DNA of 64,000 nucleotides from Auricularia sp. M13. Its lineage: Eukaryota > Basidiomycota > Agaricomycetes > Auriculariales > Auriculariaceae. The notes beneath the pieces were generated by a model. That model did no database searches. It saw only the letters and a list, made by a program, of their open reading frames with translations, and was not told the DNA's origin. Position numbers and translations under genes: made by a program. Positions within the stretch are counted from its first letter, which is position 1. Each line of letters starts with the position of its first letter. Below, piece by piece: positions 2,081-33,374 of this stretch. Location of the stretch: positions 2,170,001 through 2,234,000 of the forward strand of contig CM073199.1 in NCBI GenBank assembly GCA_037042915.1, read 5' to 3'.

Positions 2081-2127
2081 CGGGATCGGTTTTGCGGATA
2101 CGAAGATGACTTGCGCGCCGCCGGTGA

Positions 2128-5653: not shown

Positions 5654-5659
5654 TATAAA
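5654..5659 (+). promoter_or_regulatory. TATA box for the plus-strand gene tract
   Basis: TATAAA in the context CTCTTTATAAATCCCGC, upstream of CTCAAC and ATG codons near 5712 and 5755. All six units carry it unchanged (16234, 26808, 37385, 47953 and 58522). It is the most canonical core-promoter match in the unit. Confidence 0.5.
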
Positions 5660-8864: not shown

Positions 8865-11297
8865 CTACCAATCGCTCCCCGACCCCTCCGAGTGCGCGCC
8901 GTCGCGCCAGTCTGTGCTCTCGAGGCCGGCCTTGGACACTCTGCGCGTGGGCTGGAGCGTGCGCTCGTCGACGGGGCGCGGCGCTGGTGGCGGTAGCGCC
9001 CGCTGGCGTCCTTGACCTCGAGCTCCTCGCCCGCGTCGGCCAGCAGCGCGCCGAGGTACTGCGGCACGCGCGACTCGCTGTGCTGCGGCGGCAGGCTCTC
9101 GCGGATGTGCGCCGGCCGCCGCGGGCCCGGCGCCACCGCGTCGCCCGGCACCTGCTGCACGCCCACCGACTTGCCGCCCAGCTCGCGCTCCTCGAACGTC
9201 ATCAGCTCAGACACGAACCCGATGTTCGGCGAGATGCCCTTCCGCCGCTCCAGCACGAACGCGTACGCCCGAGAGAGCGTCCAGTGGTTCGCGTGGATCA
9301 GGTATGCCATGACGGCTGTCACCGACCGCGACTTGCCCGCCTTGCAGTGCACGTACGTCGCGCTCGAGTGCAGTCGTGCGTCGTCTGCGGTGATGAGAAG
9401 GCGTTTGCTGTTGCGGGATGCACTTACCGAGGAACTTGCACACCTCCTGCACGCCCGCGCGATGTTTTCCTCCTCCACCGTGTCGCGGATCGGAATGTGC
9501 ATGTACTTGTCGAATCGCTCCTTGAGGAACAAACCGTGGTCGTCGTCGCACTCTGCCGCAATGTTCAAAATGCGTCGAATGCCGTGCTGCTCGAGCGCCT
9601 CGACGTGCTCGGGTAAGGTGATTTCTGGGCCAAGGAACAAAAAGTGTGGCAAGATCTCGCTGATGACAAACTGCGCCGGCATCTCGCTGCTATCCGGCGT
9701 GCTGAGCGGCCGCGCGGTGTGAGGCGAGCGGCGGCGACGGCGGCGGAGACGACGACGACGAGTCCTGCGAGCTGCTCGACGACCAGTCGAACCGCGCGTT
9801 GCTCGACGTGTCGATCGCGCTATGCGCGTGCACGAGGAACGACGGCGACGGCGGCGGCGGGCCTGTATTCGTGTTGGCCGCTAACCGCGGGAGGTCGCGA
9901 GGAGCGGGAGGGGCCAGCAGCATCGGCGGCGCGCCAGGGAAGCGCTCGCCCTTCCCGCGAATCCCGGACGGCGGGACGGCGCTGAATGCGAATGGATGGG
10001 CCGATGTCGACGCCGAGTCAGTGTTCTGCAGACGAGGAAGGGTGGGGCCAGTGGAAGATGAAGGTCAGCGCACGTGAGCAAGATGTCGAGCAAAAGAAAA
10101 TTGAGGCTGAGAACGCGTGGACGCGATCGCTGTGCTGCGCGCGTTGGACCCGGGCGACGGCGGAGGCAGCGGGATGTCGATGAGCAGGCGGCCCGCGAGC
10201 GCGCAATGATGAGGCGCCGCGTGGGCGGGCACGGGACGCCATGGGAATGGGAGAGTCCCCGATGGACCGGGAGAGCGGCGCGGTGATGTCGGTACGCAGA
10301 TGGAAGCACAAGCCGATGCTCGTCCGCTGGCCAGGATTGGAGACGGCGATGCGTGGAGGCTCAGGCTGCAGCGGCAGATCCGAGGTAATCGATGTAGCAA
10401 GGTCTGGCAGCGAGCGCACGAGCTGGAAGCCGCCGCGCGAGACGGTGCCGGAGGGCAGGAGCGCGACGGGCACGACGGCGAAGAGCGTCCAAGTCGGGCT
10501 GCTCATGTCGGCCTCGTCCATCTCGTTGTCGACGAGCACGACGCTGCGGCCCTATTTTCCGGGCGTCGCGAGCATGTCGTCCCGGAAGACGCGCGCGGGG
10601 TCAGTCGTAATGCATGGCCGCAGGGAGCGGATGGCCTTGAAGCCGGCGCCTGGCATGCGGACGCGCTTGAGAATGAGCGAAGGTATAGACAGATTTACAG
10701 AGCGCTCAATACGGGCCGGCAGGAAAGCAGGCAGCGGACGCGTGTCAAGCAGCAGCGGCTGGCGCTCTGTTAGCTCGAGGGTGTGGAACAGCTCGCGTGG
10801 ATGCATGATCTGCGGATTGTGCACGTCATCGTCGACGGCGTCATTGGGCGTCGCTGGAGACTGCTCGCTGGGCGTCGCATACTTTGGACTATAAAGTGAG
10901 GGGAATATTCGTCTATAGGCGTGCAGTAAACTGAGCCCGGCGTCGATGGCAAGGCCAGACTCGAGGCATTCGAGCCCGCCCGCGCGCGTCCCGTCGTCGG
11001 GCCAGCAATGAGCGCGTTGCCTATAGGTCTTAATTGCAGGTTCTGGCGCACTGACTGGCGCAGCTCCTCGAGGCGGGCGAGCTCCTCGAGCACGGGGTCC
11101 GTTGCCGACACGGCCGAGTCGACGAGCGGCTGGTCGACCGAGGGGTGCGACGCGTGGCCGCCGGGGATGGCGAGGCGCGCAGGCCGCCCAGTCGCTGCTG
11201 GGATTGCCCGAGTTTGCCTCCGTCTCTTTCCCCACACCCGCCCACTCTCGCCTTCGCCGCGGCACGGGCGCGTCAGCGCCCGTGCCCTCGTCGTCAT
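8865..11297 (-). pseudogene. MAPK-phosphatase-like copy 1
   Basis: The catalytic part keeps the signature HCKAGKSRS and the intron (9385-9427). Relative to copy 2, a C is missing in a C-run just upstream of the intron, a CG run near 8977 is altered in the C-terminal tail, and the GGC/GAC run near 9730 is rearranged. The rhodanese half carries the defects common to all unit copies: a TAG where the intact gene has Trp in TPGKW, and frameshifts in the linker and around EYSPSLYS. Confidence 0.8.
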
Positions 11298-11696
11298 TCA
11301 CCGCCAGCTCGCGGCCTTGGCGCCGTCGCGCTGTTCGCCGTCGCGCCTCTCGCCCGCCCAGGCAACTCGCGCGCACTCGCTGCTCACGACGCCGCCCATG
11401 CGCCGCCCTCTTGCGCAGGCCGCAGCACACGCATGCCGGCGTCCGTGCCGCCCGCCAGGCTGTGCAAGCAGCGCCACGCCAGCTCGCGCCTACAGCTCGA
11501 GCTGGTGCGGCATGCATGGCGCTCATTTTCCCCTCGCCGCCCTCAGCGACACTGAAGCCATTCTTTAGCGCCCACACCCCGCGCAACATCATCGGCAACG
11601 GCTCCCTTCCCGCGGCGGCCTCGATGCTCATTGCCTGACGCGGTGAGCCCGCGAGCTGCTGCTCTGTGATCTCCAGCTCATCGTTCACGACCTGCA

Positions 11697-11730
11697 GATT
11701 CAGCGCTGAATGTTCGTTCAGCGCTGAATC
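11697..11730. promoter_or_regulatory. Paired palindrome, unit 2 copy
   Basis: Same double TTCAGCGCTGAA dyad as at 1117-1150, unchanged. The bases just after it vary between units (TCTTCTCG, TCTTTCTCG, TCTTTTCG) while the dyads themselves do not. Confidence 0.5.
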
Positions 11731-12223
11731 TTCTCGACGGCGGCGTCGACGAGCACGCTCGATCCGCCAATCTCCAAAATATCACCTTACAGGTACGCCT
11801 TCGATTCCTCGACGCGCGACGTGACGGGAACTCAGGATGCCTGCTTAGATCGGTCATCGACCTCGTCGTGCGTGCTCGCCCTGCCGCGTGGCGAGCAGTT
11901 CGAGCTGCTGCCGCTGCTTTGCAGCGGGCGCGCTGCAGCGTCTCGCGGAAACCCCAAGGCGACATGCAGAGCGCGGGCAGGCGGCAAAGAGCACTCCAGG
12001 CTCGGGGAATGCGGGCATAGGTAGAATGCTGTACGTACCGCGCTAACCAATATAATGCCTGTTGCCCAACTTCCCCGTGTGTCTAAGGAACGAATGAGTT
12101 TCGGTCTCGCGTGCGCGCAAACTAAATCCACGCACCAAGGACAACATCCTCGGCATGTCCGAGCTCTCCGTCTCGTTCTCCTCAGCTCGACTGTGACCTA
12201 GATAGGACGTCGAGTCGCGTCAA

Positions 12224-13604
12224 GTACCCGCGAATGCTGAGGCTGAGAAGTACAAAAGTAATGGAAGACCGGACACTAACACGTTACTCACAGGCAATAA
12301 CAAGACGGGCTACGCGGTGCACGACCTGGAGTCGTACCGCTGTCGACCCTCAGGCCATTGCGAGGATGGCGGACGCGAATCGGCGGACGCGCAGGTCGCT
12401 GGTCGGACGCGGCCGGTCGCGACTCTGCTCTCGTCATCCAACGGCTCAATTATCTGCGACAAAAACAACATGAGCGTGTGCGCGTGAACTATGGCTACAG
12501 GTACGTACCTTTCACTTTGGATTCTGAAAATATCCTGTCAAAGTCGCGACTGGTCAGTACTTGCTCGCGATCAATGTGAAGCTGACCTTTTTTTGCGCAG
12601 GGATTAGCGATGGACCTCGAATCGTACACCTAAAACCTCCTCCGATTGTTTGGAGGAGGCGGGATCGGTTTTGCGGATACGAAGATGACTTGCGCGCCGC
12701 CGGTGACGGCCGGTCAATACTCTCTCTCCTCCACTCAACCGCGCAATTATCTGCAACACAAACTATATCAGCGCGTGCGCGCGATTTAGTGCTACACGTA
12801 CGTACCATTTTCACTCGAAACTGAAAACATTTTTGCGCAAGTTGTATCTGACCGGATTTTAATCTAGAGCACTCAAATAAAATCCAATCAGCGCAGGGAC
12901 CCCGCTGTGAGACGCGCTCTATGTGGTCTTCTTATAGGTGCGAGTCGATTTGCGCTATTCGCTGTGCTCATTTACTGACGACTTGTTGTAGATCGGCCAT
13001 TATCCAGCATGTCGCGCGCTTGCGTCAGAGGCCTCGGCGCCGCTGAAAACGGGCCAAAGACGTTCATTGGATGCACCGCGCTTCTTGCGCGCCATTCAGC
13101 TGCGCGTGCAAGGCGCGGTTCGATTCGGACGGTCCTGGTCAGCCCGCCGATGCCAAAGTCGCGATCGCAAGCACGGCACGATATTCCGACATAACAACGC
13201 TTCCCAGGGCACGTCCATATGCCCATTATGACGCTCACAAAATTTCAGAGCGCGCGGATAAATGCTGCGAGCTCGAAAACTTCGGCTCGGTCGTCGGAGG
13301 GCAACCGACTTCAGCCACGCGCGCACGCAACAATCTCGGCGTTCAATGGCATTTTCACGAAGGGCTTATACCCCTCGACGACCCCCGCGAAGGAATAACG
13401 CCCCGAGTCGGCGTGGAAGCCGCCGACTCGGATTGTGTGGTCTCGGTGCATCGAGGCGTACCGCGGACGGTGCGCTCATTATTTCGCGATTCCGCGCTCA
13501 TGGTATCACTCAGGGGCATTTACTGCATCACCCCCGACCGCAGGAAGCGCGGATTTGACGGTATGAATTTGGACCGTCCGCAGACGACCGCCGAGCGCGT
13601 TTGA
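12224..13604 (+). other. Plus-strand exon/intron tract, unit 2
   Basis: Same four intron signatures as unit 1. The 177-codon frame (13071-13604) is intact. The pyrimidine run before the TTGCGCAG acceptor has one extra T, as in units 5 and 6. Confidence 0.4.
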
Positions 13605-13953
13605 GCTGACGACCTCGCGCAGACGCCCGCCGCGCGTTCGGACGGCCGGGGTACGTCGCTGCGACCAACCTGCATCGACAGCTCGCATGCAGAGCGCGCG
13701 CTTCGAGCGGTTCGGGTCCTACAGCCTTTGGCCGACCCGACCGACTCGGACACTCGTCAGCGCCAGAAACGCGTGCGGCGCGGTATCCCGGCCGCTGGAC
13801 GTGCGCGACGGTGTGGGGAACCGTATGCATATGCCCGATAGGCAGAAAAATGACGGGGTTGATGTGTACGTACCGTAGCGTAGTTTGCGGCAATGAACAC
13901 GGCATTTTGCACGATCCACCGTTCCGCGCCTCGACGGCGCTGTGTGAATGCGG

Positions 13954-14397
13954 CTACAGTATCGGAATGTCAGCGTCAACGATAGTCAGAGCAAAAAATG
14001 TGGATTGGCAACGTGCCTGAGTTGACGATCGATGGTGACGCCGACCTGCGCCGACTGAGTGAACCCCGTCCGACGTTGTCTTGGCCGTCTCCTAATTTGA
14101 ATTCCAGGAGATGATGATGTATCAGTACATCTCATTGACACAGTTCAAATAGAAGACTGACCGTGTGTGTGTGTGACGTCGAGCGCGGCGGCGACGACAT
14201 TGGTTGAGGTTTGCGGATCGGACGACTTGCACGCGCACGGACGTTCTCTGCATGCAATCGAGGACAGTGTGAGCTATTGGCAGTGGCAATACAGTGAACA
14301 ACAACTGCTTACCTGTACAATCGACGGCGAGGTCGGACGACGCGAGGAACGACGACGACGCTCGCGGATGGCAGGAACTGCATGCACGCAGCTCCAT
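13954..14397 (-). CDS. Small three-exon gene, 102 aa, unknown function
   Basis: Best copy of this gene. Coding exons are 14313-14397, 14162-14247 and 13954-14091. The introns are 14248-14312 (donor GTAAGC, acceptor TGCATGCAG) and 14092-14161 (GTCAGT, branch TACTGATAC, acceptor AATTAG). A candidate 5'-UTR intron (14398-14452) and a TATA box at 14553-14558 lie upstream. The spliced frame runs from ATG to TAG without interruption for 102 codons plus stop. The product starts MELRACSSCHPRASSS, has a basic Arg/His/Ser-rich middle and ends in a hydrophobic tail, FFALTIVDADIPIL. I see no signal peptide or known domain. The unit 4 copy is equally open; single-base differences break the others. Confidence 0.45.
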
Positions 14398-16233
14398 CTG
14401 CCAGCGACGGAGCGTGAGCGCGGAGCGTCGACGGCAGCTACGAGCACACTACCTGTACCGAGCAGCACGAGCGGTGAGGCGTCGAGGACGACAGGAAGAG
14501 CGGAAAGGAAGGGGCAGGTCGGATGCGGAGAGGGAGTCGTTCCCGCACCGACTTTATACCCTCGTAGGAAGCCTGCCGCGCCCGTATCTATTCCGGGCGG
14601 TGACTGCGCAGGCTTACGCGCGGCGGATCGTACGATGGGTGCCGTGCGAAGCACGACGAGTCGGTGCCGAGGCCCCGGTGTGCCTGTGTAATGCATTTAG
14701 CCACCCCGGCGGCGCTCGCGACGTCCATTCCACGCCGCCCGACGCATCCCCTGCCACGATACTTTGCAAGCACGTTGGATTGGCCATACTCAGCGCGATT
14801 AAGCGCCCGTGAAGTAGAGAGCGAGCGCAGGGGGTACCCCTATGCGCTCTGGACGCGAAAATGGTGCTAGAGCTCGGACACCGCCCAAGCGCCTTTCCTG
14901 CGCGTATCATCGGCGGTTCTGACTCGTGATCGACCGGAGATTGATGGCCGTGCGTTGAGAAGCTCGGGAAACCAAGGGGAACTGAACAGCGTGCGAAATG
15001 CGCCGCGTATGCAGATCTCGACCCAGACTTTGTTTCATGACGAATTCTTTCTTTTCCAAGCAGAATATGAATGCCGTCATCCATGCGCAGCATGTGACGT
15101 AGAAGGAGACAGGCGCCGGCCGGCGGCGGCGAGTTCTGGGTTGTTCTTGGTGTCTCGAGCGGAGTTTGCACGGTGCCTTCCCGCCCGCTCCCGCACGTGA
15201 GAATGAAATTTTCGTTGCCCACAGGCATTCTGACGCTGAATTTGCTTAGTCAGCGCATGCATCAGCCTGCCTGAGCTCAAATAAGCGCCCGTCATGGCGA
15301 GGGTGAGGGGCTGGTGCCCCATACCCCTGGATGTTGAATTCGCGCGTATCGTCAAGCGACGCGCCGTAACCGCTACAACTCGGAGGGATCTACACGCCAT
15401 CAAGCTTCTAATGCGAAGCTGATGGCCGTGAAACCAGGAGAGACCGCGCTGGGCGCAGTTTCCGCTGAATGCGCGGAATCGCTTCCCAGCCTCCGGCGTG
15501 TTTCTGGGCCTCGTCTCGCCAAAGTTTTATGCGGAACAGCTGACCAAGCCAGTTAGATATTGATTTCCGCAGCCGCACGCCGGGGAAGCTGCTCCAAGAC
15601 CGCGGCGACTGTCTCTGCGCGGGCGTTGTCCATGCTGGGCGGAGTTCGAAACATGGCTTCCTGGTCCCGTGCGCGCAATCCAGCCGGTTTTCTGCGCCAT
15701 TCTGATCCTCGCGCCCCTCAGCTCACGGGCGCTTAATATATTTGAGCAAACATGAATTCACTATGCATACATTAATTCTGAAATGAGGTTTTATGTTTCT
15801 CAGGCTCATGTGAAGTTCTCGCTGAGTTCTCGACCTTTCCCGCAGCACCCGTCGTTGCTTCTGCATGGGAGCGCTAATAATTGGTTACTTAAGCCAGCTC
15901 CCACTTACTGTGCGGCATAGAATTCACGGCGACGTTTCATAGATGACGATGATGGTAGGCCAAATGCGCGCCATCCAGCTCTCTTCGGCGCTTCGGCCTC
16001 GGGATACAAATATTGTGATGCATACATGCCCATGTCAATCGATTTCGACGTGGGAGTGTGGGAACGCCGGCGGGATGACGAGACGAACCGCCGGTGGCTG
16101 CACATCGGCTAAAACTGAATGGCTCGCTTAACCTGACGAAGCGGTCGCACCGCCGCGGTTGGTCGTCGGAGAATGAACAGTTTTCATCAGCTCTCTTTGA
16201 CCTGCGACTCGCTCCTGCTGGGGTTTTGCTCTT

Positions 16234-19140
16234 TATAAATCCCGCTGCGAAACCCACCTCAACATTTCGCCCAACCCGTCACGCTGCTCTCATGTTGTCC
16301 GAGCTCTGCACCATGCGTCTCTCTCAAAACACTCATGCTTTCAAGCATATTGCTCTGCTGCACTTGGACGTCGTTGCTGCAACCTGATCACGTGGTCAGC
16401 ACTGTACAGTTTCTAACTGCTGTTCACAAACTGAATTTCGCGCTCGTTGCTTGCAGCAGACACCTGTGTCAGTTTGGATGGCACTGTATTCATGGGAGGT
16501 ACGTCTCTTTCTTCTTGCTGACGACCGCGGTGTCCTGACTGCCAGTTTTCAAGTCCGACGCTGGCGCTCTTCTTCTCACCATCATGCACGTCGCTCCTCC
16601 GATGGCGCCGTACCGCCGCATCGGTGAACGCCAGCAATGGACCACTGAACAGTCGCCCGCAGGCGCGCTTCCGAAACTCCGTGCTCAACCTGGCGGCGGG
16701 CCGCAAATCCAAGGACCAGGACACCTGGGTGAGTAAAATTTCGGTCTTCCTCACGTCACCCTTTCTCTGCCGTCGGACTGGCAAGCCGGTGTTGGTGTGC
16801 GGTCATCCAACAGCGCTGATGCTGCGCATCACCGCGTAGCTCGACGAAACCGGCGACCGCGCCTTCGCATCGAGGGCGGTCCGCATCACGTGATGTTTTC
16901 AACATCAGTGTCAGCATGCGCTTGTCCGGACGGATTCATGATTCATTCGGCTTTCGACGTTATCTCCTCACGAGCGTCACGAGCAATACTGACGCATTTC
17001 ATTTGTAGGAATACATGCATTCGTCTCCATCGAAGCCTGGGCGCTCCCTATGGCCGCCATGGGCACTGAGACGGTGTATCCACCCGCCGCAACGTGCGGC
17101 TGGCCCGCGCCGTCCCCACATCTGCCCGACCTCGCGTGTCACGTCCAGCCACAAACCTCACCCCGCCGATTTCTCGAGCCCCAGGCCGTCACTATGCGCT
17201 TGGACCGTTCTGCGACGCCGTCACTGTGCTTCTCCGTCCGCAGCCACGAGTGGGCGCGCACGAGGACGCCGAGCCGCGCTTGGAGTCGCTCTCAGTCACC
17301 GTCCTCAAGCAGGTCTCCTTTCTGTAATTGGAACTTGTACGGTGAGTCGCGTGCTCGTCTCGGGTCGGCTCGCGCTCACTTCCGAGGTGCAGTGTCGTTT
17401 ACCGCGGATCACCGCCACGTTCTCCACATCGTCCGCACCGCGGCGATCACATCCTCGAACACGAAGACGTCGGTGGCCACCGTTATCACTGACCGTTGCC
17501 GCCGTCGCCGACTTGATGCCATGCGCGCAAGCAATCAAGGGCGCGCCGCGGCTATTTTTTGATGTCACAAAGGTGCGTCGTTTCGTTCCAACGGCGCCCG
17601 CTGTGACTGACTATGCGACGCGCAGATATCTCCTCATACTTGCCCGCACCGTCGAGTGGGAACCACACCGTGCCGCGGAGGCCGGTGCAGGGCAAGGCTC
17701 GCCCACGATCGTCCATGTACCGCGGCCGCTGCGCAGAGAACCGTGCTCAGCGCCGCTCAAACATCGCCGCTGCGGCGGAGCTCGCGGATAGCGATGTGGG
17801 TTCAGTGCACAATGCGCGGGACATACGAGCCGCGGTGGGCAAGCACGATGTGAGTTCGTTTTTGTTTCCCCCTTCCCGCTGCCGACGCTAACAGAAAAGC
17901 TCACAGCTCTTCGTGCAGGCTTCCGCTCGTCGTCTCTCGCGTCGGCCACAAGAACCAACAGCCGTATGAGTCAGCACACCGCGCGCTTATGCGTGGAGAC
18001 CGGCGCCTAGTGAGTCATCGTCCGTTTCGTATCTCCCGCGATTCCGCACGCAGCGAGCGACACGTCGAGCATCTCGCGCCCTCGTGGTGCGCGGACGTGG
18101 GCGGACAACTGGGCATTGCATTGCCACGTTGTTTCGCGTGCTGCGCTCGACGGCGGCCGGCGCTCATCGCAATCTTCGTCCGCCAACGCTGACCCTCTCG
18201 CAGATGCATTCCGCGCAGCGGCGTGCGCCCCGTCGCCTGCAAGTGGCCTATATGCATGACATCTACGCCCACACCGCGCGCGATGCGCTCAGGACCGGCG
18301 CTTAGTGAGTCGCGCGACTTTTTGATTTTCATCGCTAACAGTTTTGGCCGCGGTGAGTGCTACAGTACTCAGCGTGCGCCCTCGATCTACTCAGGTGATT
18401 CGTACGCGTCTCTGAGCTGAGGACGATAGTTTTTTTTATGGTGCGTTGCTCGTCGCCGCGCGCAGCACCGACGACGTTTGCTGATCAGCGCGCTCAGGTT
18501 GTGTTGCCCGCCGCGTCAGGCGGGCTCGCCGCAGTGCTCTAAGACGCTCAGAATGCTCAGATACCGCGCGCCAAGTCCGGGCCTCGCGCCGTTCGTGAGA
18601 TCTCGCCGTTCGTGCTCGCTGTCGCCGACGGCGGGGGAAATTTGACTGCGGCGGCTCGAAACTTCGGCCTCGCTATCGCCAATGGTGACTCACTACTGGC
18701 GCCGAAGCCCCAGTGTCGACGTTGCGCGGTTCGACGCGGGTGAGCCATTTTTGTCGGTTTTGGCCGCAACCGCTCCACAGCGCTGACCGTCATCCGCAGC
18801 GCCAAACCACACCACACCGGCGCTTATGCGTCCGAAACGACTCCAGAGACGTGCCCCAGCGTGTCTCGCACGACGCCGACGTTGCACACGAATTTTGTGT
18901 CCACCGCGGTTCCCATTGCCCACGACGTTTCCGCCGTCCGCTCCCCAAACTGCCCCATTTCGCTGTCCGTGTTGTCTCGTACAACAACGGGCACATACCC
19001 ATTAGTTAGCGCCAATACAGACGTTTTCTTCCTCACCGTCCGAGCCGTTTGCCGTCCCCAGCAAGCCTCTGGACACCGTTCCTCACGACGTTGAGCCCTC
19101 CAAACGCCCAGTTCCCGTTGCTCGCACCTCGCTAAGATAA
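16234..19140 (+). CDS. Multi-exon gene tract of unknown function, unit 2
   Basis: Same architecture as the unit 1 copy, from TATAAA to the TAA at 19138. The exon before the last intron is six bases shorter than in unit 1 (GCTGTCGCC..GGCGGGGGAAAT) yet stays in frame, giving a protein two residues shorter. The GGTACCGCC-like segment near 16610 reads as in units 3, 5 and 6. Confidence 0.38.
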
Positions 19141-19441
19141 CGGCCAGCCAATGAGAGCCCTCAAAAAACGGCCAAATTTCCCCTCGAAAGTCGGAAAACC
19201 TGAAATTTCCGCGATACTTAGGAAACCGACAAAGAAACACGGTACGCCGAACCAAAGACGCGGCGCATGAGTCGCGCTTTTCTATTGATCGCATAGATAG
19301 TGCAGGCGCGGCATGCAAGTGCAACTTGGTCCGATAAAACATATTCTTACAACGGACGTATGTATATGCTGGAAACGAACCGAGAGACAGGATAACAAGC
19401 CTTTCCAAAAGACAAAAGCACAAAAGCCAGCCACAGCAAGT

Positions 19442-21874
19442 CTACCAATCGCTCCCCGACCCCTCCGAGTGCGCGCCGTCGCGCCAGTCTGTGCTCTCGA
19501 GGCCGGCCTTGGACACTCTGCGCGTGGGCTGGAGCGTGCGCTCGTCGACGGGCGCGCGGCGCTGGTGGCGGTAGCGCCCGCTGGCGTCCTTGACCTCGAG
19601 CTCCTCGCCCGCGTCGGCCAGCAGCGCGCCGAGGTACTGCGGCACGCGCGACTCGCTGTGCTGCGGCGGCAGGCTCTCGCGGATGTGCGCCGGCCGCCGC
19701 GGGCCCGGCGCCACCGCGTCGCCCGGCACCTGCTGCACGCCCACCGACTTGCCGCCCAGCTCGCGCTCCTCGAACGTCATCAGCTCAGACACGAACCCGA
19801 TGTTCGGCGAGATGCCCTTCCGCCGCTCCAGCACGAACGCGTACGCCCGAGAGAGCGTCCAGTGGTTCGCGTGGATCAGGTATGCCATGACGGCTGTCAC
19901 CGACCGCGACTTGCCCGCCTTGCAGTGCACGTACGTCGCGCTCGAGTGCAGTCGTGCGTCGTCTGCGGTGATGAGAAGGCGTTTGCTGTTGCGGGATGCA
20001 CTTACCGAGGAACTTGCACACCTCCTGCACGCCCCGCGCGATGTTTTCCTCCTCCACCGTGTCGCGGATCGGAATGTGCATGTACTTGTCGAATCGCTCC
20101 TTGAGGAACAAACCGTGGTCGTCGTCGCACTCTGCCGCAATGTTCAAAATGCGTCGAATGCCGTGCTGCTCGAGCGCCTCGACGTGCTCGGGTAAGGTGA
20201 TTTCTGGGCCAAGGAACAAAAAGTGTGGCAAGATCTCGCTGATGACAAACTGCGCCGGCATCTCGCTGCTATCCGGCGTGCTGAGCGGCCGCGCGGTGTG
20301 AGGCGAGCGCGGCGACGACGGCGGAGACGACGACGACGAGTCCTGCGAGCTGCTCGACGACCAGTCGAACCGCGCGTTGCTCGACGTGTCGATCGCGCTA
20401 TGCGCGTGCACGAGGAACGACGGCGACGGCGGCGGCGGGCCTGTATTCGTGTTGGCCGCTAACCGCGGGAGGTCGCGAGGAGCGGGAGGGGCCAGCAGCA
20501 TCGGCGGCGCGCCAGGGAAGCGCTCGCCCTTCCCGCGAATCCCGGACGGCGGGACGGCGCTGAATGCGAATGGATGGGCCGATGTCGACGCCGAGTCAGT
20601 GTTCTGCAGACGAGGAAGGGTGGGGCCAGTGGAAGATGAAGGTCAGCGCACGTGAGCAAGATGTCGAGCAAAAGAAAATTGAGGCTGAGAACGCGTGGAC
20701 GCGATCGCTGTGCTGCGCGCGTTGGACCCGGGCGACGGCGGAGGCAGCGGGATGTCGATGAGCAGGCGGCCCGCGAGCGCGCAATGATGAGGCGCCGCGT
20801 GGGCGGGCACGGGACGCCATGGGAATGGGAGAGTCCCGATGGACCGGGAGAGCGGCGCGGTGATGTCGGTACGCAGATGGAAGCACAAGCCGATGCTCGT
20901 CCGCTGGCCAGGATTGGAGACGGCGATGCGTGGAGGCTCAGGCTGCAGCGGCAGATCCGAGGTAATCGATGTAGCAAGGTCTGGCAGCGAGCGCACGAGC
21001 TGGAAGCCGCCGCGCGAGACGGTGCCGGAGGGCAGGAGCGCGACGGGCACGACGGCGAAGAGCGTCCAAGTCGGGCTGCTCATGTCGGCCTCGTCCATCT
21101 CGTTGTCGACGAGCACGACGCTGCGGCCCTATTTTCCGGGCGTCGCGAGCATGTCGTCCCGGAAGACGCGCGCGGGGGTCAGTCGTAATGCATGGCCGCA
21201 GGGAGCGGATGGCCTTGAAGCCGGCGCCTGGCATGCGGACGCGCTTGAGAATGAGCGAAGGTATAGACAGATTTACAGAGCGCTCAATACGGGCCGGCAG
21301 GAAAGCAGGCAGCGGACGCGTGTCAAGCAGCAGCGGCTGGCGCTCTGTTAGCTCGAGGGTGTGGAACAGCTCGCGTGGATGCATGATCTGCGGATTGTGC
21401 ACGTCATCGTCGACGGCGTCATTGGGCGTCGCTGGAGACTGCTCGCTGGGCGTCGCATACTTTGGACTATAAAGTGAGGGGAATATTCGTCTATAGGCGT
21501 GCAGTAAACTGAGCCCGGCGTCGATGGCAAGGCCAGACTCGAGGCATTCGAGCCCGCCCGCGCGCGTCCCGTCGTCGGGCCAGCAATGAGCGCGTTGCCT
21601 ATAGGTCTTAATTGCAGGTTCTGGCGCACTGACTGGCGCAGCTCCTCGAGGCGGGCGAGCTCCTCGAGCACGGGGTCCGTTGCCGACACGGCCGAGTCGA
21701 CGAGCGGCTGGTCGACCGAGGGGTGCGACGCGTGGCCGCCGGGGATGGCGAGGCGCGCAGGCCGCCCAGTCGCTGCTGGGATTGCCCGAGTTTGCCTCCG
21801 TCTCTTTCCCCACACCCGCCCACTCTCGCCTTCGCCGCGGCACGGGCGCGTCAGCGCCGTGCCCTCGTCGTCAT
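19442..21874 (-). pseudogene. MAPK-phosphatase-like copy 2 (catalytic half open)
   Basis: Best preserved unit copy. A frame is open from 20603 to the intron donor, and exon 2 (19962-19442) continues it in phase across intron 19963-20005, giving up to 372 codons with the full phosphatase domain: general-acid Asp in IPIRDTVEE, HCKAGKSRS loop, ISPNIGF motif. Upstream of 20603 the frame is lost and the rhodanese half has the shared TAG and frameshifts. The break coincides with a sequence that looks like a 3' splice site (CTGCAG at 20604-20609, branch-like GCTGACC near 20641). It may be a shortened catalytic-only gene and not a dead one. Confidence 0.7.
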
Positions 21875-22799
21875 TCACCGCCAGCTCGCGGCCTTGGCGC
21901 CGTCGCGCTGTTCGCCGTCGCGCCTCTCGCCCGCCCAGGCAACTCGCGCGCACTCGCTGCTCACGACGCCGCCCATGCGCCGCCCTCTTGCGCAGGCCGC
22001 AGCACACGCATGCCGGCGTCCGTGCCGCCCGCCAGGCTGTGCAAGCAGCGCCACGCCAGCTCGCGCCTACAGCTCGAGCTGGTGCGGCATGCATGGCGCT
22101 CATTTTCCCCTCGCCGCCCTCAGCGACACTGAAGCCATTCTTTAGCGCCCACACCCCGCGCAACATCATCGGCAACGGCTCCCTTCCCGCGGCGGCCTCG
22201 ATGCTCATTGCCTGACGCGGTGAGCCCGCGAGCTGCTGCTCTGTGATCTCCAGCTCATCGTTCACGACCTGCAGATTCAGCGCTGAATGTTCGTTCAGCG
22301 CTGAATCTTTTCGACGGCGGCGTCGACGAGCACGCTCGATCCGCCAATCTCCAAAATATCACCTTACAGGTACGCCTTCGATTCCTCGACGCGCGACGTG
22401 ACGGGAACTCAGGATGCCTGCTTAGATCGGTCATCGACCTCGTCGTGCGTGCTCGCCCTGCCGCGTGGCGAGCAGTTCGAGCTGCTGCCGCTGCTTTGCA
22501 GCGGGCGCGCTGCAGCGTCTCGCGGAAACCCCAAGGCGACATGCAGAGCGCGGGCAGGCGGCAAAGAGCACTCCAGGCTCGGGGAATGCGGGCATAGGTA
22601 GAATGCTGTACGTACCGCGCTAACCAATATAATGCCTGTTGCCCAACTTCCCGTGTGTCTAAGGAACGAATGAGTTTCGGTCTCGCGTGCGCGCAAACTA
22701 AATCCACGCACCAAGGACAACATCCTCGGCATGTCCGAGCTCTCCGTCTCGTTCTCCTCAGCTCGACTGTGACCTAGATAGGACGTCGAGTCGCGTCAA

Positions 22800-24179
22800 G
22801 TACCCGCGAATGCTGAGGCTGAGAAGTACAAAAGTAATGGAAGACCGGACACTAACACGTTACTCACAGGCAATAACAAGACGGGCTACGCGGTGCACGA
22901 CCTGGAGTCGCACCGCTGTCGACCCTCAGGCCATTGCGAGGATGGCGGACGCGAATCGGCGGACGCGCAGGTCGCTGGTCGGACGCGGCCGGTCGCGACT
23001 CTGCTCTCGTCATCCAACGGCTCAATTATCTGCGACAAAAACAACATGAGCGTGTGCGCGTGAACTATGGCTACAGGTACGTACCTTTCACTTTGGATTC
23101 TGAAAATATCCTGTCAAAGTCGCGACTGGTCAGTACTTGCTCGCGATCAATGTGAAGCTGACCTTTTTTGCGCAGGGATTAGCGATGGACCTCGAATCGT
23201 ACACCTAAAACCTCCTCCGATTGTTTGGAGGAGGCGGGATCGGTTTTGCGGATACGAAGATGACTTGCGCGCCGCCGGTGACGGCCGGTCAATACTCTCT
23301 CTCCTCCACTCAACCGCGCAATTATCTGCAACACAAACTATATCAGCGCGTGCGCGCGATTTAGTGCTACACGTACGTACCATTTTCACTCGAAACTGAA
23401 AACATTTTTGCGCAAGTTGTATCTGACCGGATTTTAATCTAGAGCACTCAAATAAAATCCAATCAGCGCAGGGACCCCGCTGTGAGACGCGCTCTATGTG
23501 GTCTTCTTATAGGTGCGAGTCGATTTGCGCTATTCGCTGTGCTCATTTACTGACGACTTGTTGTAGATCGGCCATTATCCAGCATGTCGCGCGCTTGCGT
23601 CAGAGGCCTCGGCGCCGCTGAAAACGGGCCAAAGACGTTCATTGGATGCACCGCGCTTCTTGCGCGCCATTCAGCTGCGCGTGCAAGGCGCGGTTCGATT
23701 CGGACGGTCCTGGTCAGCCCGCCGATGCCAAAGTCGCGATCGCAAGCACGGCACGATATTCCGACATAACAACGCTTCCCAGGGCACGTCCATATGCCCA
23801 TTATGACGCTCACAAAATTTCAGAGCGCGCGGATAAATGCTGCGAGCTCGAAAACTTCGGCTCGGTCGTCGGAGGGCAACCGACTTCAGCCACGCGCGCA
23901 CGCAACAATCTCGGCGTTCAATGGCATTTTCACGAAGGGCTTATACCCCTCGACGACCCCCGCGAAGGAATAACGCCCCGAGTCGGCGTGGAAGCCGCCG
24001 ACTCGGATTGTGTGGTCTCGGTGCATCGAGGCGTACCGCGGACGGTGCGCTCATTATTTCGCGATTCCGCGCTCATGGTATCACTCAGGGGCATTTACTG
24101 CATCACCCCCGACCGCAGGAAGCGCGGATTTGACGGTATGAATTTGGACCGTCCGCAGACGACCGCCGAGCGCGTTTGA
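22800..24179 (+). other. Plus-strand exon/intron tract, unit 3
   Basis: Intron signatures as in unit 1. The 177-codon frame (23646-24179) is intact and identical in translation to units 1, 2, 4 and 5. Confidence 0.4.
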
Positions 24180-24528
24180 GCTGACGACCTCGCGCAGACG
24201 CCCGCCGCGCGTTCGGACGGCCGGGGTACGTCGCTGCGACCAACCTGCATCGACAGCTCGCATGCAGAGCGCGCGCTTCGAGCGGTTCGGGTCCTACAGC
24301 CTTTGGCCGACCCGACCGACTCGGACACTCGTCAGCGCCAGAAACGCGTGCGGCGCGGTATCCCGGCCGCTGGACGTGCGCGACGGTGTGGGGAACCGTA
24401 TGCATATGCCCGATAGGCAGAAAAATGACGGGGTTGATGTGTACGTACCGTAGCGTAGTTTGCGGCAATGAACACGGCATTTTGCACGATCCACCGTTCC
24501 GCGCCTCGACGGCGCTGTGTGAATGCGG

Positions 24529-25133
24529 CTACAGTATCGGAATGTCAGCGTCAACGATAGTCAGAGCAAAAAATGTGGATTGGCAACGTGCCTGAGTTGA
24601 CGATCGATGGTGACGCCGACCTGCGCCGACTGAGTGAACCCGTCCGACGTTGTCTTGGCCGTCTCCTAATTTGAATTCCAGGAGATGATGATGTATCAGT
24701 ACATCTCATTGACACAGTTCAAATAGAAGACTGACCGTGTGTGTGTGTGACGTCGAGCATGCGGCGGCGACGACATTGGTTGAGGTTTGCGGATCGGACG
24801 ACTTGCACGCGCACGGACGTTCTCTGCATGCAATCGAGGACAGTGTGAGCTATTGGCAGTGGCAATACAGTGAACAACAACTGCTTACCTGTACAATCGA
24901 CGGCGAGGTCGGACGACGCGAGGAACGACGACGACGCTCGCGGATGGCAGGAACTGCATGCACGCAGCTCCATCTGCCAGCGACGGAGCGTGAGCGCGGA
25001 GCGTCGACGGCAGCTACGAGCACACTACCTGTACCGAGCAGCACGAGCGGTGAGGCGTCGAGGACGACAGGAAGAGCGGAAAGGAAGGGGCAGGTCGGAT
25101 GCGGAGAGGAGTCGTTCCCGCACCGACTTTATA
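24529..25133 (-). pseudogene. Small minus-strand gene, unit 3 copy
   Basis: TATA box at 25128-25133, ATG at 24973, stop at 24529. Exon 2 has a three-base-longer CG run (GAGCATGCGG), and exon 3 lacks one C of the CCCC run used in units 2 and 4, so the final frame is shifted. Confidence 0.33.
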
Positions 25134-26807
25134 CCCTCGTAGGAAGCCTGCCGCGCCCGTATCTATTCCGGGCGGTGACTGCGCAGGCTTACGCGCGGCG
25201 GATCGTACGATGGGTGCCGTGCGAAGCACGACGAGTCGGTGCCGAGGCCCCGGTGTGCCTGTGTAATGCATTTAGCCACCCCGGCGGCGCTCGCGACGTC
25301 CATTCCACGCCGCCCGACGCATCCCCTGCCACGATACTTTGCAAGCACGTTGGATTGGCCATACTCAGCGCGATTAAGCGCCCGTGAAGTAGAGAGCGAG
25401 CGCAGGGGTACCCCTATGCGCTCTGGACGCGAAAATGGTGCTAGAGCTCGGACACCGCCCAAGCGCCTTTCCTGCGCGTATCATCGGCGGTTCTGACTCG
25501 TGATCGACCGGAGATTGATGGCCGTGCGTTGAGAAGCTCGGGAAACCAAGGGGAACTGAACAGCGTGCGAAATGCGCCGCGTATGCAGATCTCGACCCAG
25601 ACTTTGTTTCATGACGAATTCTTTCTTTTCCAAGCAGAATATGAATGCCGTCATCCATGCGCAGCATGTGACGTAGAAGGGAGACAGGCGCCGGCCGGCG
25701 GCGGCGAGTTCTGGGTTGTTCTTGGTGTCTCGAGCGGAGTTTGCACGGTGCCTTCCCGCCCGCTCCCGCACGTGAGAATGAAATTTTCGTTGCCCACAGG
25801 CATTCTGACGCTGAATTTGCTTAGTCAGCGCATGCATCAGCCTGCCTGAGCTCAAATAAGCGCCCGTCATGGCGAGGGTGAGGGGCTGGTGCCCCATACC
25901 CCTGGATGTTGAATTCCGCGTATCGTCAAGCGACGCGCCGTAACCGCTACAACTCGGAGGGATCTACACGCCATCAAGCTTCTAATGCGAAGCTGATGGC
26001 CGTGAAACCAGGAGAGACCGCGCTGGGCGCAGTTTCCGCTGAATGCGCGGAATCGCTTCCCAGCCTCCGGCGTGTTTCTGGGCCTCGTCTCGCCAAAGTT
26101 TTATGCGGAACAGCTGACCAAGCCAGTTAGATATTGATTTCCGCAGCCGCACGCCGGGGAAGCTGCTCCAAGACCGCGGCGACTGTCTCTGCTTGGGCGT
26201 TGTCCATGCTGGGCGGAGTTCGAAACATGGCTTCCTGGTCCCGTGCGCGCAATCCAGCCGGTTTTCTGCGCCATTCTGATCCTCGCGCCCCTCAGCTCAC
26301 GGGCGCTTAATATATTTGAGCAAACATGAATTCACTATGCATACATTAATTCTGAAATGAGGTTTTATGTTTCTCAGGCTCATGTGAAGTTCTCGCTGAG
26401 TTCTCGACCTTTCCCGCAGCACCCGTCGTTGCTTCTGCATGGGAGCGCTAATAATTGGTTACTTAAGCCAGCTCCCACTTACTGTGCGGCATAGAATTCA
26501 CGGCGACGTTTCATAGATGACGATGATGGTAGGCCAAATGCGCGCCATCCAGCTCTCTTCGGCGCTTCGGCCTCGGGATACAAATATTGTGATGCATACA
26601 TGCCCATGTCAATCGATTTCGACGTGGGAGTGTGGGAACGCCGGCGGGATGACGAGACGAACCGCCGGTGGCTGCACATCGGCTAAAACTGAATGGCTCG
26701 CTTAACCTGACGAAGCGGTCGCACCGCCGCGGTTGGTCGTCGGAGAATGAACAGTTTTCATCAGCTCTCTTTGACCTGCGACTCGCTCCTGCTGGGGTTT
26801 TGCTCTT

Positions 26808-29715
26808 TATAAATCCCGCTGCGAAACCCACCTCAACATTTCGCCCAACCCGTCACGCTGCTCTCATGTTGTCCGAGCTCTGCACCATGCGTCTCTCTCA
26901 AAACACTCATGCTTTCAAGCATATTGCTCTGCTGCACTTGGACGTCGTTGCTGCAACCTGATCACGTGGTCAGCACTGTACAGTTTCTAACTGCTGTTCA
27001 CAAACTGAATTTCGCGCTCGTTGCTTGCAGCAGACACCTGTGTCAGTTTGGATGGCACTGTATTCATGGGAGGTACGTCTCTTTCTTCTTGCTGACGACC
27101 GCGGTGTCCTGACTGCCAGTTTTCAAGTCCGACGCTGGCGCTCTTCTTCTCACCATCATGCACGTCGCTCCTCCGATGGCGCCGTACCGCCGCATCGGTG
27201 AACGCCAGCAATGGACCACTGAACAGTCGCCCCGCAGGCGCGCCTGAAACTCCGTGCTCAACCTGGCGGCGGGCCGCAAATCCAAGGACCAGGACACCTG
27301 GGTGAGTAAAATTTCGGTCTTCCTCACGTCACCCTTTCTCTGCCGTCGGACTGGCAAGCCGGTGTTGGTGTGCGGTCATCCAACAGCGCTGATGCTGCGC
27401 ATCACCGCGTAGCTCGACGAAACCGGCGACCGCGCCTTCGCATCGAGGGCGGTCCGCATCACGTGATGTTTTCAACATCAGTGTCAGCATGCGCTTGTCC
27501 GGACGGATTCATGATTCATTCGGCTTTCGACGTTATCTCCTCACGAGCGTCACGAGCAATACTGACGCATTTCATTTGTAGGAATACATGCATTCGTCTC
27601 CATCGAAGCCTGGGCGCTCCCTATGGCCGCCATGGGCACTGAGACGGTGTATCCACCCGCCGCAACGCGGCTGGCCCGCGCCGTCCCCACATCTGCCCGA
27701 CCTCGCGTGTCACGTCCAGCCACAAACCTCACCCGCCGATTTCTCGAGCCCCAGGCCGTCACTATGCGCTTGGACCGTTCTGCGACGCCGTCACTGTGCT
27801 TCTCCGTCCGCAGCCACGAGTGGGCCGCGCACGAGGACGCGAGCCGCGCTTGGAGTCGCTCTCAGTCACCGTCCTCAAGCAGGTCTCCTTTCTGTAATTG
27901 GAACTTGTACGGTGAGTCGCGTGCTCGTCTCGGGTCGGCTCGCGCTCACTTCCGAGGTGCAGTGTCGTTTACCGCGGATCACCGCCACGTTCTCCACATC
28001 GTCCGCACCGCGGCGATCACATCCTCGAACACGAAGACGTCGGTGGCCACCGTTATCACTGACCGTTGCCGCCGTCGCCGACTTGATGCCATGCGCGCAA
28101 GCAATCAAGGCGCGCCGCGGCTATTTTTGGATGTCACAAAGGTGCGTCGTTTCGTTCCAACGGCGCCCGCTGTGACTGACTATGCGACGCGCAGATATCT
28201 CCTCATACTTGCCCGCACCGTCGAGTGGGAACCACACCGTGCCGCGGAGGCCGGTGCAGGGCAAGGCTTCGCCCACGATCGTCCATGTACCGCGGCCGCT
28301 GCGCAGAGAACCGTGCTCAGCGCCGCTCAAACATCGCCGCTGCGGCGGAGCTCGCGGATAGCGATGTGGGTTCAGTGCACAATGCGCGGGACATACGAGC
28401 CGCGGTGGGCAAGCACGATGTGAGTTCGTTTTTGTTTCCCCCTTCCCGCTGCCGACGCTAACAGAAAAGCTCACAGCTCTTCGTGCAGGCTTCCGCTCGT
28501 CGTCTCTCGCGTCGGCCACAAGAACCAACAGCCGTATGAGTCAGCACACGCGCGCTTATGCGTGGAGACCGGCGCCTAGTGAGTCATCGTCCGTTTCGTA
28601 TCTCCCGCGATTCCGCACGCAGCGAGCGACACGTCGAGCATCTCGCGCCCTCGTGGTGCGCGGACGTGGGCGGACAACTGGGCATTGCATTGCCACGTTG
28701 TTTCGCGTGCTGCGCTCGACGGCGGCCGGCGCTCATCGCAATCTTCGTCCGCCAACGCTGACCCTCTCGCAGATGCATTCCGCGCAGCGGCGTGCGCCCC
28801 GTCGCCTGCAAGTGGCCTATATGCATGACATCTACGCCCACACCGCGCGCGATGCGCTCAGGACCGGCGCTTAGTGAGTCGCGCGACTTTTTGATTTTCA
28901 TCGCTAACAGTTTTGGCCGCGGTGAGTGCTACAGTACTCAGCGTGCGCCCTCGATCTACTCAGGTGATTCGTACGCGTCTCTGAGCTGAGGACGATAGTT
29001 TTTTTTATGGTGCGTTGCTCGTCGCCGCGCGCAGCACCGACGACGTTTGCTGATCAGCGCGCTCAGGTTGTGTTGCCCGCCGCGTCAGGCGGGCTCGCCG
29101 CAGTGCTCTAAGACGCTCAGAATGCTCAGATACCGCGCGCCAAGTCCGGGCCTCGCGCCGTTCGTGAGATCTCGCCGTTCGTGCTCGCCGCGGTCGCCGA
29201 CGGCGAGGGGCAAAATTTGACTGCGGCGGCTCGAAACTTCGGCCTCGACATCGCCAATGGTGACTCACTACTGGCGCCGAAGCCCCAGTGTCGACGTTGC
29301 GCGGTTCGACGCGGGTGAGCCATTTTTGTCGGTTTTGGCCGCAACCGCTCCACAGCGCTGACCGTCATCCGCAGCGCCAAACCACACCACACCGGCGCTT
29401 ATGCGTCCGAAACGACTCCAGAGACGTGCCCCAGCGTGTCTCGCACGACGCCGACGTTGCACACGAATTTTGTGTCCACCGCGGTTCCCATTGCCCACGA
29501 CGTTTCCGCCGTCCGCTCCCCAAACTGCCCCATTTCGCTGTCCGTGTTGTCTCGCACAACAACGGGCACATACCCATTAGTTAGCGCCAATACAGACGTT
29601 TTCTTCCTCACCGTCCGAGCCGTTTGCCGTCCCCAGCAAGCCTCTGGACACCGTTCCTCACGACGTTGAGCCCTCCAAACGCCCAGTTCCCGTTGCTCGC
29701 ACCTCGCTAAGATAA
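26808..29715 (+). CDS. Multi-exon gene tract of unknown function, unit 3
   Basis: Same tract as unit 1. The penultimate exon is identical in length to unit 1 and reads IANGD after FGLD, where units 1, 2 and 4 have FGLA; this uses the CGACATC variant shared with units 5 and 6. Near 27235 the CGCCCCGCAGG and CGCGCCTG runs differ in length from other units. Confidence 0.37.
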
Positions 29716-30014
29716 CGGCCAGCCAATGAGAGCCCTCAAAAAACGGCCATTTCCCCTCGAAAGTCGGAAAACCTGAAATTTCCGCGATACTTAGGAAACC
29801 GACAAAGAAACACGGTACGCCGAACCAAAGACGCGGCGCATGAGTCGCGCTTTTCTATTGATCGCATAGATAGTGCAGGCGCGGCATGCAAGTGCAACTT
29901 GGTCCGATAAAACATATTCTTACAACGGACGTATGTATATGCTGGAAACGAACCGAGAGACAGGATAACAAGCCTTTCCAAAAGACAAAAGCACAAAAGC
30001 CAGCCACAGCAAGT

Positions 30015-32450
30015 CTACCAATCGCTCCCCGACCCCTCCGAGTGCGCGCCGTCGCGCCAGTCTGTGCTCTCGAGGCCGGCCTTGGACACTCTGCGCGTGG
30101 GCTGGAGCGTGCGCTCGTCGACGGGCGCGCGGCGCTGGTGGCGGTAGCGCCCGCTGGCGTCCTTGACCTCGAGCTCCTCGCCCGCGTCGGCCAGCAGCGC
30201 GCCGAGGTACTGCGGCACGCGCGACTCGCTGTGCTGCGGCGGCAGGCTCTCGCGGATGTGCGCCGGCCGCCGCGGGCCCGGCGCCACCGCGTCGCCCGGC
30301 ACCTGCTGCACGCCCACCGACTTGCCGCCCAGCTCGCGCTCCTCGAACGTCATCAGCTCAGACACGAACCCGATGTTCGGCGAGATGCCCTTCCGCCGCT
30401 CCAGCACGAACGCGTACGCCCGAGAGAGCGTCCAGTGGTTCGCGTGGATCAGGTATGCCATGACGGCTGTCACCGACCGCGACTTGCCCGCCTTGCAGTG
30501 CACGTACGTCGCGCTCGAGTGCAGTCGTGCGTCGTCTGCGGTGATGAGAAGGCGTTTGCTGTTGCGGGATGCACTTACCGAGGAACTTGCACACCTCCTG
30601 CACGCCCCGCGCGATGTTTTCCTCCTCCACCGTGTCGCGGATCGGAATGTGCATGTACTTGCTTAATCGCTCCTTGAGGAACAAACCGTGGTCGTCGTCG
30701 CACTCTGCCGCAATGTTCAAAATGCGTCGAATGCCGTGCTGCTCCGAGCGCCTCGACGTGCTCGGGTAAGGTGATTTCTGGGCCAAGGAACAAAAAGTGT
30801 GGCAAGATCTCGCTGATGACAAACTGCGCCGGCATCTCGCTGCTATCCGGCGTGCTGAGCGGCCGCGCGGTGTGAGGCGAGCGCGGCGACGACGGCGGAG
30901 ACGACGACGACGAGTCCTGCGAGCTGCTCGACGACCAGTCGAACCGCGCGTTGCTCGACGTGTCGATCGCGCTATGCGCGTGCACGAGGAACGACGGCGA
31001 CGGCGGCGGCGGGCCTGTATTCGTGTTGGCCGCTAACCGCGGGAGGTCGCGAGGAGCGGGAGGGGCCAGCAGCATCGGCGGCGCGCCAGGGAAGCGCTCG
31101 CCCTTCCCGCGAATCCCGGACGGCGGGACGGCGCTGAATGCGAATGGATGGGCCGATGTCGACGCCGAGTCAGTGTTCTGCAGACGAGGAAGGGTGGGGC
31201 CAGTGGAAGATGAAGGTCAGCGCACGTGAGCAAGATGTCGAGCAAAAGAAAATTGAGGCTGAGAACGCGTGGACGACGCGATCGCTGTGCTGCGCGCGTT
31301 GGACCCGGGCGACGGCGGAGGCAGCGGGATGTCGATGAGCAGGCGGCCCGCGAGCGCGCAATGATGAGGCGCCGCGTGGGCGGGCACGGGACGCCATGGG
31401 AATGGGAGAGTCCCGATGGACCGGGAGAGCGGCGCGGTGATGTCGGTACGCAGATGGAAGCACAAGCCGATGCTCGTCCGCTGGCCAGGATTGGAGACGG
31501 CGATGCGTGGAGGCTCAGGCTGCAGCGGCAGATCCGAGGTAATCGATGTAGCAAGGTCTGGCAGCGAGCGCACGAGCTGGAAGCCGCCGCGCGAGACGGT
31601 GCCGGAGGGCAGGAGCGCGACGGGCACGACGGCGAAGAGCGTCCAAGTCGGGCTGCTCATGTCGGCCTCGTCCATCTCGTTGTCGACGAGCACGACGCTG
31701 CGGCCCTATTTTCCGGGCGTCGCGAGCATGTCGTCCCGGAAGACGCGCGGGGGTCAGTCGTAATGCATGGCCGCAGGGAGCGGATGGCCTTGAAGCCGGC
31801 GCCTGGCATGCGGACGCGCTTGAGAATGAGCGAAGGTATAGACAGATTTACAGAGCGCTCAATACGGGCCGGCAGGAAAGCAGGCAGCGGACGCGTGTCA
31901 AGCAGCAGCGGCTGGCGCTCTGTTAGCTCGAGGGTGTGGAACAGCTCGCGTGGATGCATGATCTGCGGATTGTGCACGTCATCGTCGACGGCGTCATTGG
32001 GCGTCGCTGGAGACTGCTCGCTGGGCGTCGCATACTTTGGACTATAAAGTGAGGGGAATATTCGTCTATAGGCGTGCAGTAAACTGAGCCCGGCGTCGAT
32101 GGCAAGGCCAGACTCGAGGCATTCGAGCCCGCCCGCGCGCGTCCCGTCGTCGGGCCAGCAATGAGCGCGTTGCCTATAGGTCTTAATTGCAGGTTCTGGC
32201 GCACTGACTGGCGCAGCTCCTCGAGGCGGGCGAGCTCCTCGAGCACGGGGTCCGTTGCCGACACGGCCGAGTCGACGAGCGGCTGGTCGACCGAGGGGTG
32301 CGACGCGTGGCCGCCGGGGATGGCGAGGCGCGCAGGCCGCCCAGTCGCTGCTGGGATTGCCCGAGTTTGCCTCCGTCTCTTTCCCCACACCCGCCCACTC
32401 TCGCCTTCGCCGCGGCACGGGCGCGCCAGCGCCCGTGCCCTCGTCGTCAT
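30015..32450 (-). pseudogene. MAPK-phosphatase-like copy 3
   Basis: Intron at 30536-30578 and HCKAGKSRS loop intact. Two private changes: a compact four-base replacement near 30661 turns Phe-Asp into Leu-Ser just before KYMHIPIRD without shifting the frame, and an extra C near 30744 shifts it. The rhodanese half carries the shared defects. Confidence 0.78.
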
Positions 32451-33374
32451 TCACCGCCAGCTCGCGGCCTTGGCGCCGTCGCGCTGTTCGCCGTCGCGCC
32501 TCTCGCCCGCCCAGGCAACTCGCGCGCACTCGCTGCTCACGACGCCGCCCATGCGCCGCCCTCTTGCGCAGGCCGCAGCACACGCATGCCGGCGTCCGTG
32601 CCGCCCGCCAGGCTGTGCAAGCAGCGCCACGCCAGCTCGCGCCTACAGCTCGAGCTGGTGCGGCATGCATGGCGCTCATTTTCCCCTCGCCGCCCTCAGC
32701 GACACTGAAGCCATTCTTTAGCGCCCACACCCCGCGCAACATCATCGGCAACGGCTCCCTTCCGCGGCGGCCTCGATGCTCATTGCCTGACGCGGTGAGC
32801 CCGCGAGCTGCTGCTCTGTGATCTCCAGCTCATCGTTCACGACCTGCAGATTCAGCGCTGAATGTTCGTTCAGCGCTGAATCTTCTCGACGGCGGCGTCG
32901 ACGAGCACGCTCGATCCGCCAATCTCCAAAATATCACCTTACAGGTACGCCTTCGATTCCTCGACGCGCGACGTGACGGGAACTCAGGATGCCTGCTTAG
33001 ATCGGTCATCGACCTCGTCGTGCGTGCTCGCCCTGCCGCGTGGCGAGCAGTTCGAGCTGCTGCCGCTGCTTTGCAGCGGGCGCGCTGCAGCGTCTCGCGG
33101 AAACCCCAAGGCGACATGCAGAGCGCGGGCAGGCGGCAAAGAGCACTCCAGGCTCGGGGAATGCGGGCATAGGTAGAATGCTGTACGTACCGCGCTAACC
33201 AATATAATGCCTGTTGCCCAACTTCCCGTGTGTCTAAGGAACGAATGAGTTTCGGTCTCGCGTGCGCGCAAACTAAATCCACGCACCAAGGACAACATCC
33301 TCGGCATGTCCGAGCTCTCCGTCTCGTTCTCCTCAGCTCGACTGTGACCTAGATAGGACGTCGAGTCGCGTCAA

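Follow-up and report, generated by a model that had tools for sequence, protein, structure and literature searches.

Silent-only divergence of a MAP-kinase-phosphatase-type gene in a tandem array of Auricularia sp. M13, a probable fossil of past purifying selection

The tandem array and its phosphatase gene

The window, which is the whole stretch of 64,000 nucleotides analysed, comprises a 10.58-kb tandem repeat with five whole units, an end unit (T), and a partial unit at the left edge; the true end of the array lies beyond the window. Every unit carries one version of a phosphatase gene on the minus strand. The units are as follows:

474 to 11052, no strand: array unit c1, 99.7% identity to c2
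11053 to 21630, no strand: array unit c2, the reference (copy 2)
21631 to 32205, no strand: array unit c3, 99.5% identity to c2
32206 to 42779, no strand: array unit c4, 99.6% identity to c2
42780 to 53340, no strand: array unit c5, 99.2% identity to c2
53341 to 64000, no strand: end unit T, in which the phosphatase gene is open, running off the window

Apart from the phosphatase, Pfam gave no convincing domain on 38 ORFs selected from the 96 stop-to-stop ORFs of at least 60 aa, a scan that small spliced exons could escape. One of the scanned ORFs (10555-11781) overlaps the decayed half of the phosphatase gene, and an MCU match among them (E=0.022, under its cut-off) was judged to be due to chance. 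Approximately 8 kb per unit (11106-18900) showed no recognisable gene in the scanned ORFs. An rDNA origin of the repeat was rejected, as there was no Rfam match in 10000-33000 and no tRNA across the window in a bacterial-code scan. A plasmid collection gave no match to 13000-19000, and no paper on this array was found in excerpts of the open-access literature.

The gene in T is open over 741 visible codons followed by a stop; no start codon is seen, as the window ends first. The T gene and the open frame of copy 2 are composed of the following elements:

62296 to 64000, minus strand: T gene exon 1, open frame with rhodanese-like domain, linker, and first catalytic half
62253 to 62295, minus strand: T gene intron of 43 nt (GTAAGT...CAG), identical in T and the five units
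61732 to 62252, minus strand: T gene exon 2, from the HCKAGKSRS active-site loop to the stop
19442 to 20642, minus strand: copy 2 open frame (exon 20006-20642, intron 19963-20005, exon 19442-19962)

The domain order in T is rhodanese-like domain, linker, and dual-specificity phosphatase (DSP) domain. The N-terminal half matches the N-terminal domain of DUSP6 (1hzm) with E=2.4e-4 over 52 residues, in keeping with a rhodanese-like kinase-binding domain, and the Pfam rhodanese profile matches with E=0.0026 and 18.6 bits, which is under its cut-off of 22.2. At E up to 1e-6, 56 distinct solved sequences are matched by the spliced catalytic domain; nearly all of them are titled dual-specificity or related phosphatases, and the domain qualifies as a dual-specificity phosphatase catalytic domain. 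The top match was 3lj8 (7.3e-20, titled tyrosine-protein phosphatase), followed by DUSP9 and DUSP10 entries and PYST1, another name for DUSP6. PF00782 was found with E=1.4e-18 on the exon-2 frame of copy 2, covering the second half of the profile, while Pfam did not report the half domain with which T exon 1 ends. The HCX5R loop is present as HCKAGKSRS in both T and copy 2, and the Asp of PIRD in T, presumably the general-acid residue, is aligned to the PISD Asp of 3lj8. As judged from these features, the T gene is of the MAP-kinase-phosphatase type, combining rhodanese and dual-specificity phosphatase domains. Viral contigs searched for relatives of T exon 1 gave three pattern matches, none of which was confirmed.

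Silent-only, decayed, and exchanged parts of the gene

A comparison of T with the units divides the gene and its flank into the following parts:

62335 to 62540, minus strand: silent-only patch in T, with 20 bases unlike those of the units and no amino-acid change
20045 to 20250, minus strand: the silent-only patch in copy 2
62541 to 62749, minus strand: near-identical linker block with 2 differences, taken to be a conversion tract
62750 to 62911, minus strand: second silent-only block, with 15 silent codons, a single Val/Ile, and one indel of 3 bases
62912 to 63800, minus strand: part of T whose unit counterpart decayed (stop, shared frameshifts)
20604 to 21700, minus strand: decayed rhodanese/linker half in copy 2
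60925 to 61105, no strand: noncoding patch, c5 with the T version and c1-c4 with another, with 21 substitutions relative to the unit majority

The original prediction, that copy 2 differs from T by 20 bases that are all synonymous, was correct in its count: between T 62336-62539 and copy 2, there are 20 base differences in 68 codons and no amino-acid change. Its paired coordinates were a few bases off, as 62345-62545 corresponds to 20055-20255 and not to 20047-20250. The 20 differences fall on codon positions 1, 2, and 3 in the numbers 2, 0, and 18. When 20 changes were placed at random with the observed number of transitions kept, a mean of 13.7 and a minimum of 6 amino-acid changes resulted (20,000 trials). 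The value of Nd = 2.0 in the patch corresponds to the path from CTC to TTG, both leucine, through a non-leucine step, and no amino acid differs. All five units carry the identical 20 changes, to which c3 adds three substitutions of its own. The third-base differences of the patch go in both directions (5 S-to-W, 8 W-to-S, 3 S-to-S, and 2 W-to-W), so both lineages would have taken silent changes, as far as the T-unit pair can tell.

From the end of the patch to 20603, 14 silent codons and one Val/Ile replacement were counted; the replacement had been anticipated, while the expected number of about ten silent changes was too low. The second silent-only block (62750-62911) lies mostly 5' of the first ATG of the unit frame. 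For 62335-62540 and 62750-62911, dN was approximately 0.01 or less and dS was 0.38-0.84, depending on the segment and the method (NG86 or ML). These values support the view, already put forward in the original prediction, that the two blocks diverged under strong protein-level constraint, and hence purifying selection, before amplification. The suggested check on the whole domain likewise gave a dN/dS near 0 and not near 1, with half of the domain uninformative: T and the units are nearly identical in the second catalytic half (exon 2), the intron, and the 3' flank, which therefore do not inform on selection.

The decay of the rhodanese half in the units was as described earlier. Among 152 changed gap-free codons of exon 1 (18 gapped codons were dropped), 72 of 116 upstream of 62914 were replacing, vs. 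1 of 36 downstream. The best split between replacing and silent codons lay between 62914 and 62911, and none of 2000 shuffles gave an equally strong one. The 72 replacing codons include a change from TGG to a TAG stop in the units at the equivalent of T 63448. Eleven upstream indels are common to at least four of the five units, and seven of them are not a multiple of three, although two of these seven (63284 and 63271) lie 13 bp apart and jointly keep the frame. The array units have no intact reading frame through the rhodanese and DSP domains. In 62901-63600, dN/dS was approximately 0.3-0.5. In the stretch aligned to DUSP6, T and the units differ at 6 of 52 residues; T alone has the DUSP6 residue at three of these, neither has it at the other three, and the units alone have it at none. 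This comparison, read by hand from two alignments, suggests that the units are the departed versions.

Third bases in 63301-63600 are one-sided, with A/T in T against G/C in the units at 19 positions and the reverse at 1, and the neighbouring blocks differ in this respect. Repeat-induced point mutation was rejected, as C-to-T-type differences are about equal in both directions (52 and 54).

Silent divergence (NG86) changes abruptly along the gene: 0.01 (61900-62334), 0.60 (62335-62540), 0.04 (62541-62749), 0.38 (62750-62900), 0.42 (62901-63300), 0.40 (63301-63600), and 0.12 (63601-64000). In terms of silent differences per site, the values were 1/~145 for 61735-62334, where T and the units differ by one silent change, 18-20/44 for 62335-62540, 2/54 for 62541-62749, and 12/41 for 62750-62900. 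Fisher tests on rounded site numbers separated the patch from exon 2 (p = 6.5e-14) and from the linker block (p = 7.7e-7). The 20 patch changes form one 205-bp island adjoining the 209-bp linker block with its 2 differences, and such heterogeneity between adjacent blocks is that of a homogenised array with conversion tracts. A silent divergence of 0.60 beside one of 0.04 is not readily explained by a single history with a single age.

The diverged gene block extends from approximately 62335 to at least 64000, the window end, while T and the units hardly differ in exon 2, the intron, and approximately 9 kb of flank. Over the 8923 bp that lie outside this block, 41 substitutions and 36 indel columns separate T from the unit majority, and 21 of the 41 substitutions are concentrated in the noncoding patch 60925-61105 (18640-18815 in copy 2), where c3 is without two of the changes. 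This patch is likely to be an exchange tract inside the array, and the pattern of sharing indicates that tracts probably moved between units. Much of the pattern is probably shaped by conversion or crossover tracts.

The most private differences were found in c5 (40 indel and 31 substitution columns), and 17 of the 31 substitutions fall in one 250-bp bin that holds the T-like patch. GC3 of T is 0.96 in 61735-62334 and 0.91 in 62541-62749, compared with 0.67-0.76 in its other blocks; GC-biased conversion, as a reading of this high GC3, was not relied on, as the equally homogenised 3' flank (61103-61731) has a GC of 0.54.

A past selected gene or a selected truncated copy

On balance, we favour the reading that the array is young and homogenised and that its units, as decayed copies, preserve a fossil of a working version of the gene. 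Two gene versions would have diverged for long (silent divergence of about 0.4-0.8), during which both would have had 62335-62911 translated within a functional phosphatase that was probably full-length. In the unit version, the upstream half would then have decayed; after this, the array would have been amplified, and unequal crossing-over or gene conversion would have erased the differences, sparing only some blocks close to the visible end of the array, where the gene is still open in T. The silent-only stretch would accordingly represent past purifying selection, with its bounds set by the ends of recombination tracts.

The start of the unit frame bears directly on this reading. The copy 2 frame opens after an in-frame TGA at 20643-20645, and its first ATG is at 62791 (20501 in copy 2). 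The silent-only zone begins at 62911, about 120 bp before that ATG, and the intervening codons (62793-62900) include 8 silent and 1 replacing changes; these changes probably arose while the region was being translated. A silent-only zone that reaches upstream of the ATG needs no extra assumptions if the version was full-length and working. Three observations count against the preferred reading. Silent divergence is alike on the two sides of 62911 (0.39 and 0.44, NG86), for which one lineage under unequal selection suffices and two sources are uncalled for. The switch lies within ~25 nt of the opening of the unit frame, a coincidence that selection on the frame explains better. The disabling changes also exceed the expectation for a common recent death of both halves (P about 0.03, at a rough assumed rate).

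The same observations are the strength of an alternative that we regard as unlikely, although it is the most serious rival, namely that the unit lineage lost the rhodanese half and made a catalytic-only phosphatase under purifying selection until amplification. The downstream piece gathered at most one replacing change in ~266 replacement sites against a silent divergence of 0.4-0.6, so that its neutral period would span no more than about 4-16% of the unit branch, depending on the branch share assumed, while upstream exon 1 gathered its 72 replacing codons and 7 frame-shifting indels. A joint death of the two halves makes at least 6 disabling changes unlikely at the above P, which assumes 0.15 disabling events per neutral change. 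The closeness of the frame opening to the switch speaks for the catalytic-only target proposed earlier; against it, there is no ATG until 20501, and silent codons outnumber replacing ones 8:1 upstream of that ATG.

The splice signals are similarly divided. On the minus strand, the units show a branch-site-like CTGAC (20646), a pyrimidine-rich run, and an acceptor-like CTGCAG (20604) that abuts 20603, which is consistent with a catalytic-only transcript; T is without the CTGAC at the equivalent place. Against this, no GTRNGT donor was found in 20560-21900 of copy 2, which has weak donor-like sites, and three of the five CTRAY sites in this range have a paired YAG, i.e., such pairs are common by chance. 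A splice joining the decayed half to 20603 was rejected for want of a good donor in that range. The near-identical linker block, a sign of tract exchange, also speaks against the catalytic-only enzyme. A broader proposal is that the array stores catalytic-only genes of the MAP-kinase-phosphatase type, truncated at the N terminus and so freed of their kinase-docking domain, which were selected for much of their history and then amplified to at least five copies for gene dosage; this appears improbable to us.

We give still slightly less weight to an explanation of the silent/replacing contrast that dispenses with tract exchange and holds that the catalytic half was simply more constrained in a full-length gene whose death came shortly before amplification. 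It would fit the weak rhodanese match below the Pfam cut-off and the dN/dS upstream, which is not 1. Nevertheless, the switch is placed inside the linker, away from a domain edge, adjacent linker blocks are ~tenfold apart in silent divergence, and the disabling changes are somewhat many for a recent death at the assumed rate.

Copy 2 alone (one of five) is open to the stop as assembled, and c1, c3, c4, and c5 are frameshifted. Eight indel events among the units fall in 19442-20603 (1162 bp) vs. 68 in ~8.3 kb elsewhere, and the resulting densities of 6.9 (ORF) and 8.2 (outside) per kb do not differ (p = 0.86). Indels account for 85 of the 135 private difference columns among the units, and 51 of the 66 private indel events involve a single base. 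An excess of one-base indels is typical of unpolished long reads, and much of the private indel load may be sequencing error. If the indels are real, there is no present constraint on the units; if they are errors, the units are too young to tell. The idea that selection perhaps continued after amplification was not upheld, as four of the five copies are frameshifted and the indel density of the ORF is like that of the flank. It is thus very doubtful that the units are still expressed and selected today as catalytic-only phosphatases, although the frame of copy 2 runs uninterrupted past the active site to the stop, and the one-base indels would be uninformative in both directions if they were errors. 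The units most likely make no useful enzyme.

The same excess of private indels and one-base events could be taken to indicate that the contrast is an assembly artefact of collapsed or mis-joined haplotypes, and two real haplotypes may have been mis-joined at T. Error cannot make 20 silent changes that are codon-structured and identical in five units, and we consider an artefact the least probable of the explanations, being extremely unlikely.

Blocks of purely silent differences are easily mistaken for proof of a functional truncated copy. In this array, the silent block belongs to a mosaic formed by exchanged tracts and so points to a working ancestor rather than to a working unit. If the catalytic-only alternative were true, a signalling phosphatase would have lost its docking domain and been amplified in tandem.

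Comparison with known systems

The T gene resembles the MAP kinase phosphatases of the DUSP6 type in its order of rhodanese-like domain, linker, and DSP domain and in its HCKAGKSRS loop. It differs from them in a long low-complexity linker, a C-terminal tail, and a rhodanese match below the Pfam cut-off, and the array units further differ in having lost the rhodanese half.

In human GBA and CYP21A2, a functional gene lies beside a pseudogene with conversion tracts. These pairs show, like the array, identical blocks interspersed with diverged ones when the working gene is compared with the dead copy; the array has many tandem decayed copies instead of one.

Concerted evolution with gene conversion is described, in the excerpts available, for tandem gene arrays of Trypanosoma brucei (PMC1855330) and for rRNA pseudogenes in ascomycetes (PMC5555474). 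According to these excerpts, both systems share with the Auricularia array near-identical units, patchy exchange, and diverged copies alongside; unlike in those systems as excerpted, the repeated gene here has decayed, and one open version stands at the visible end.
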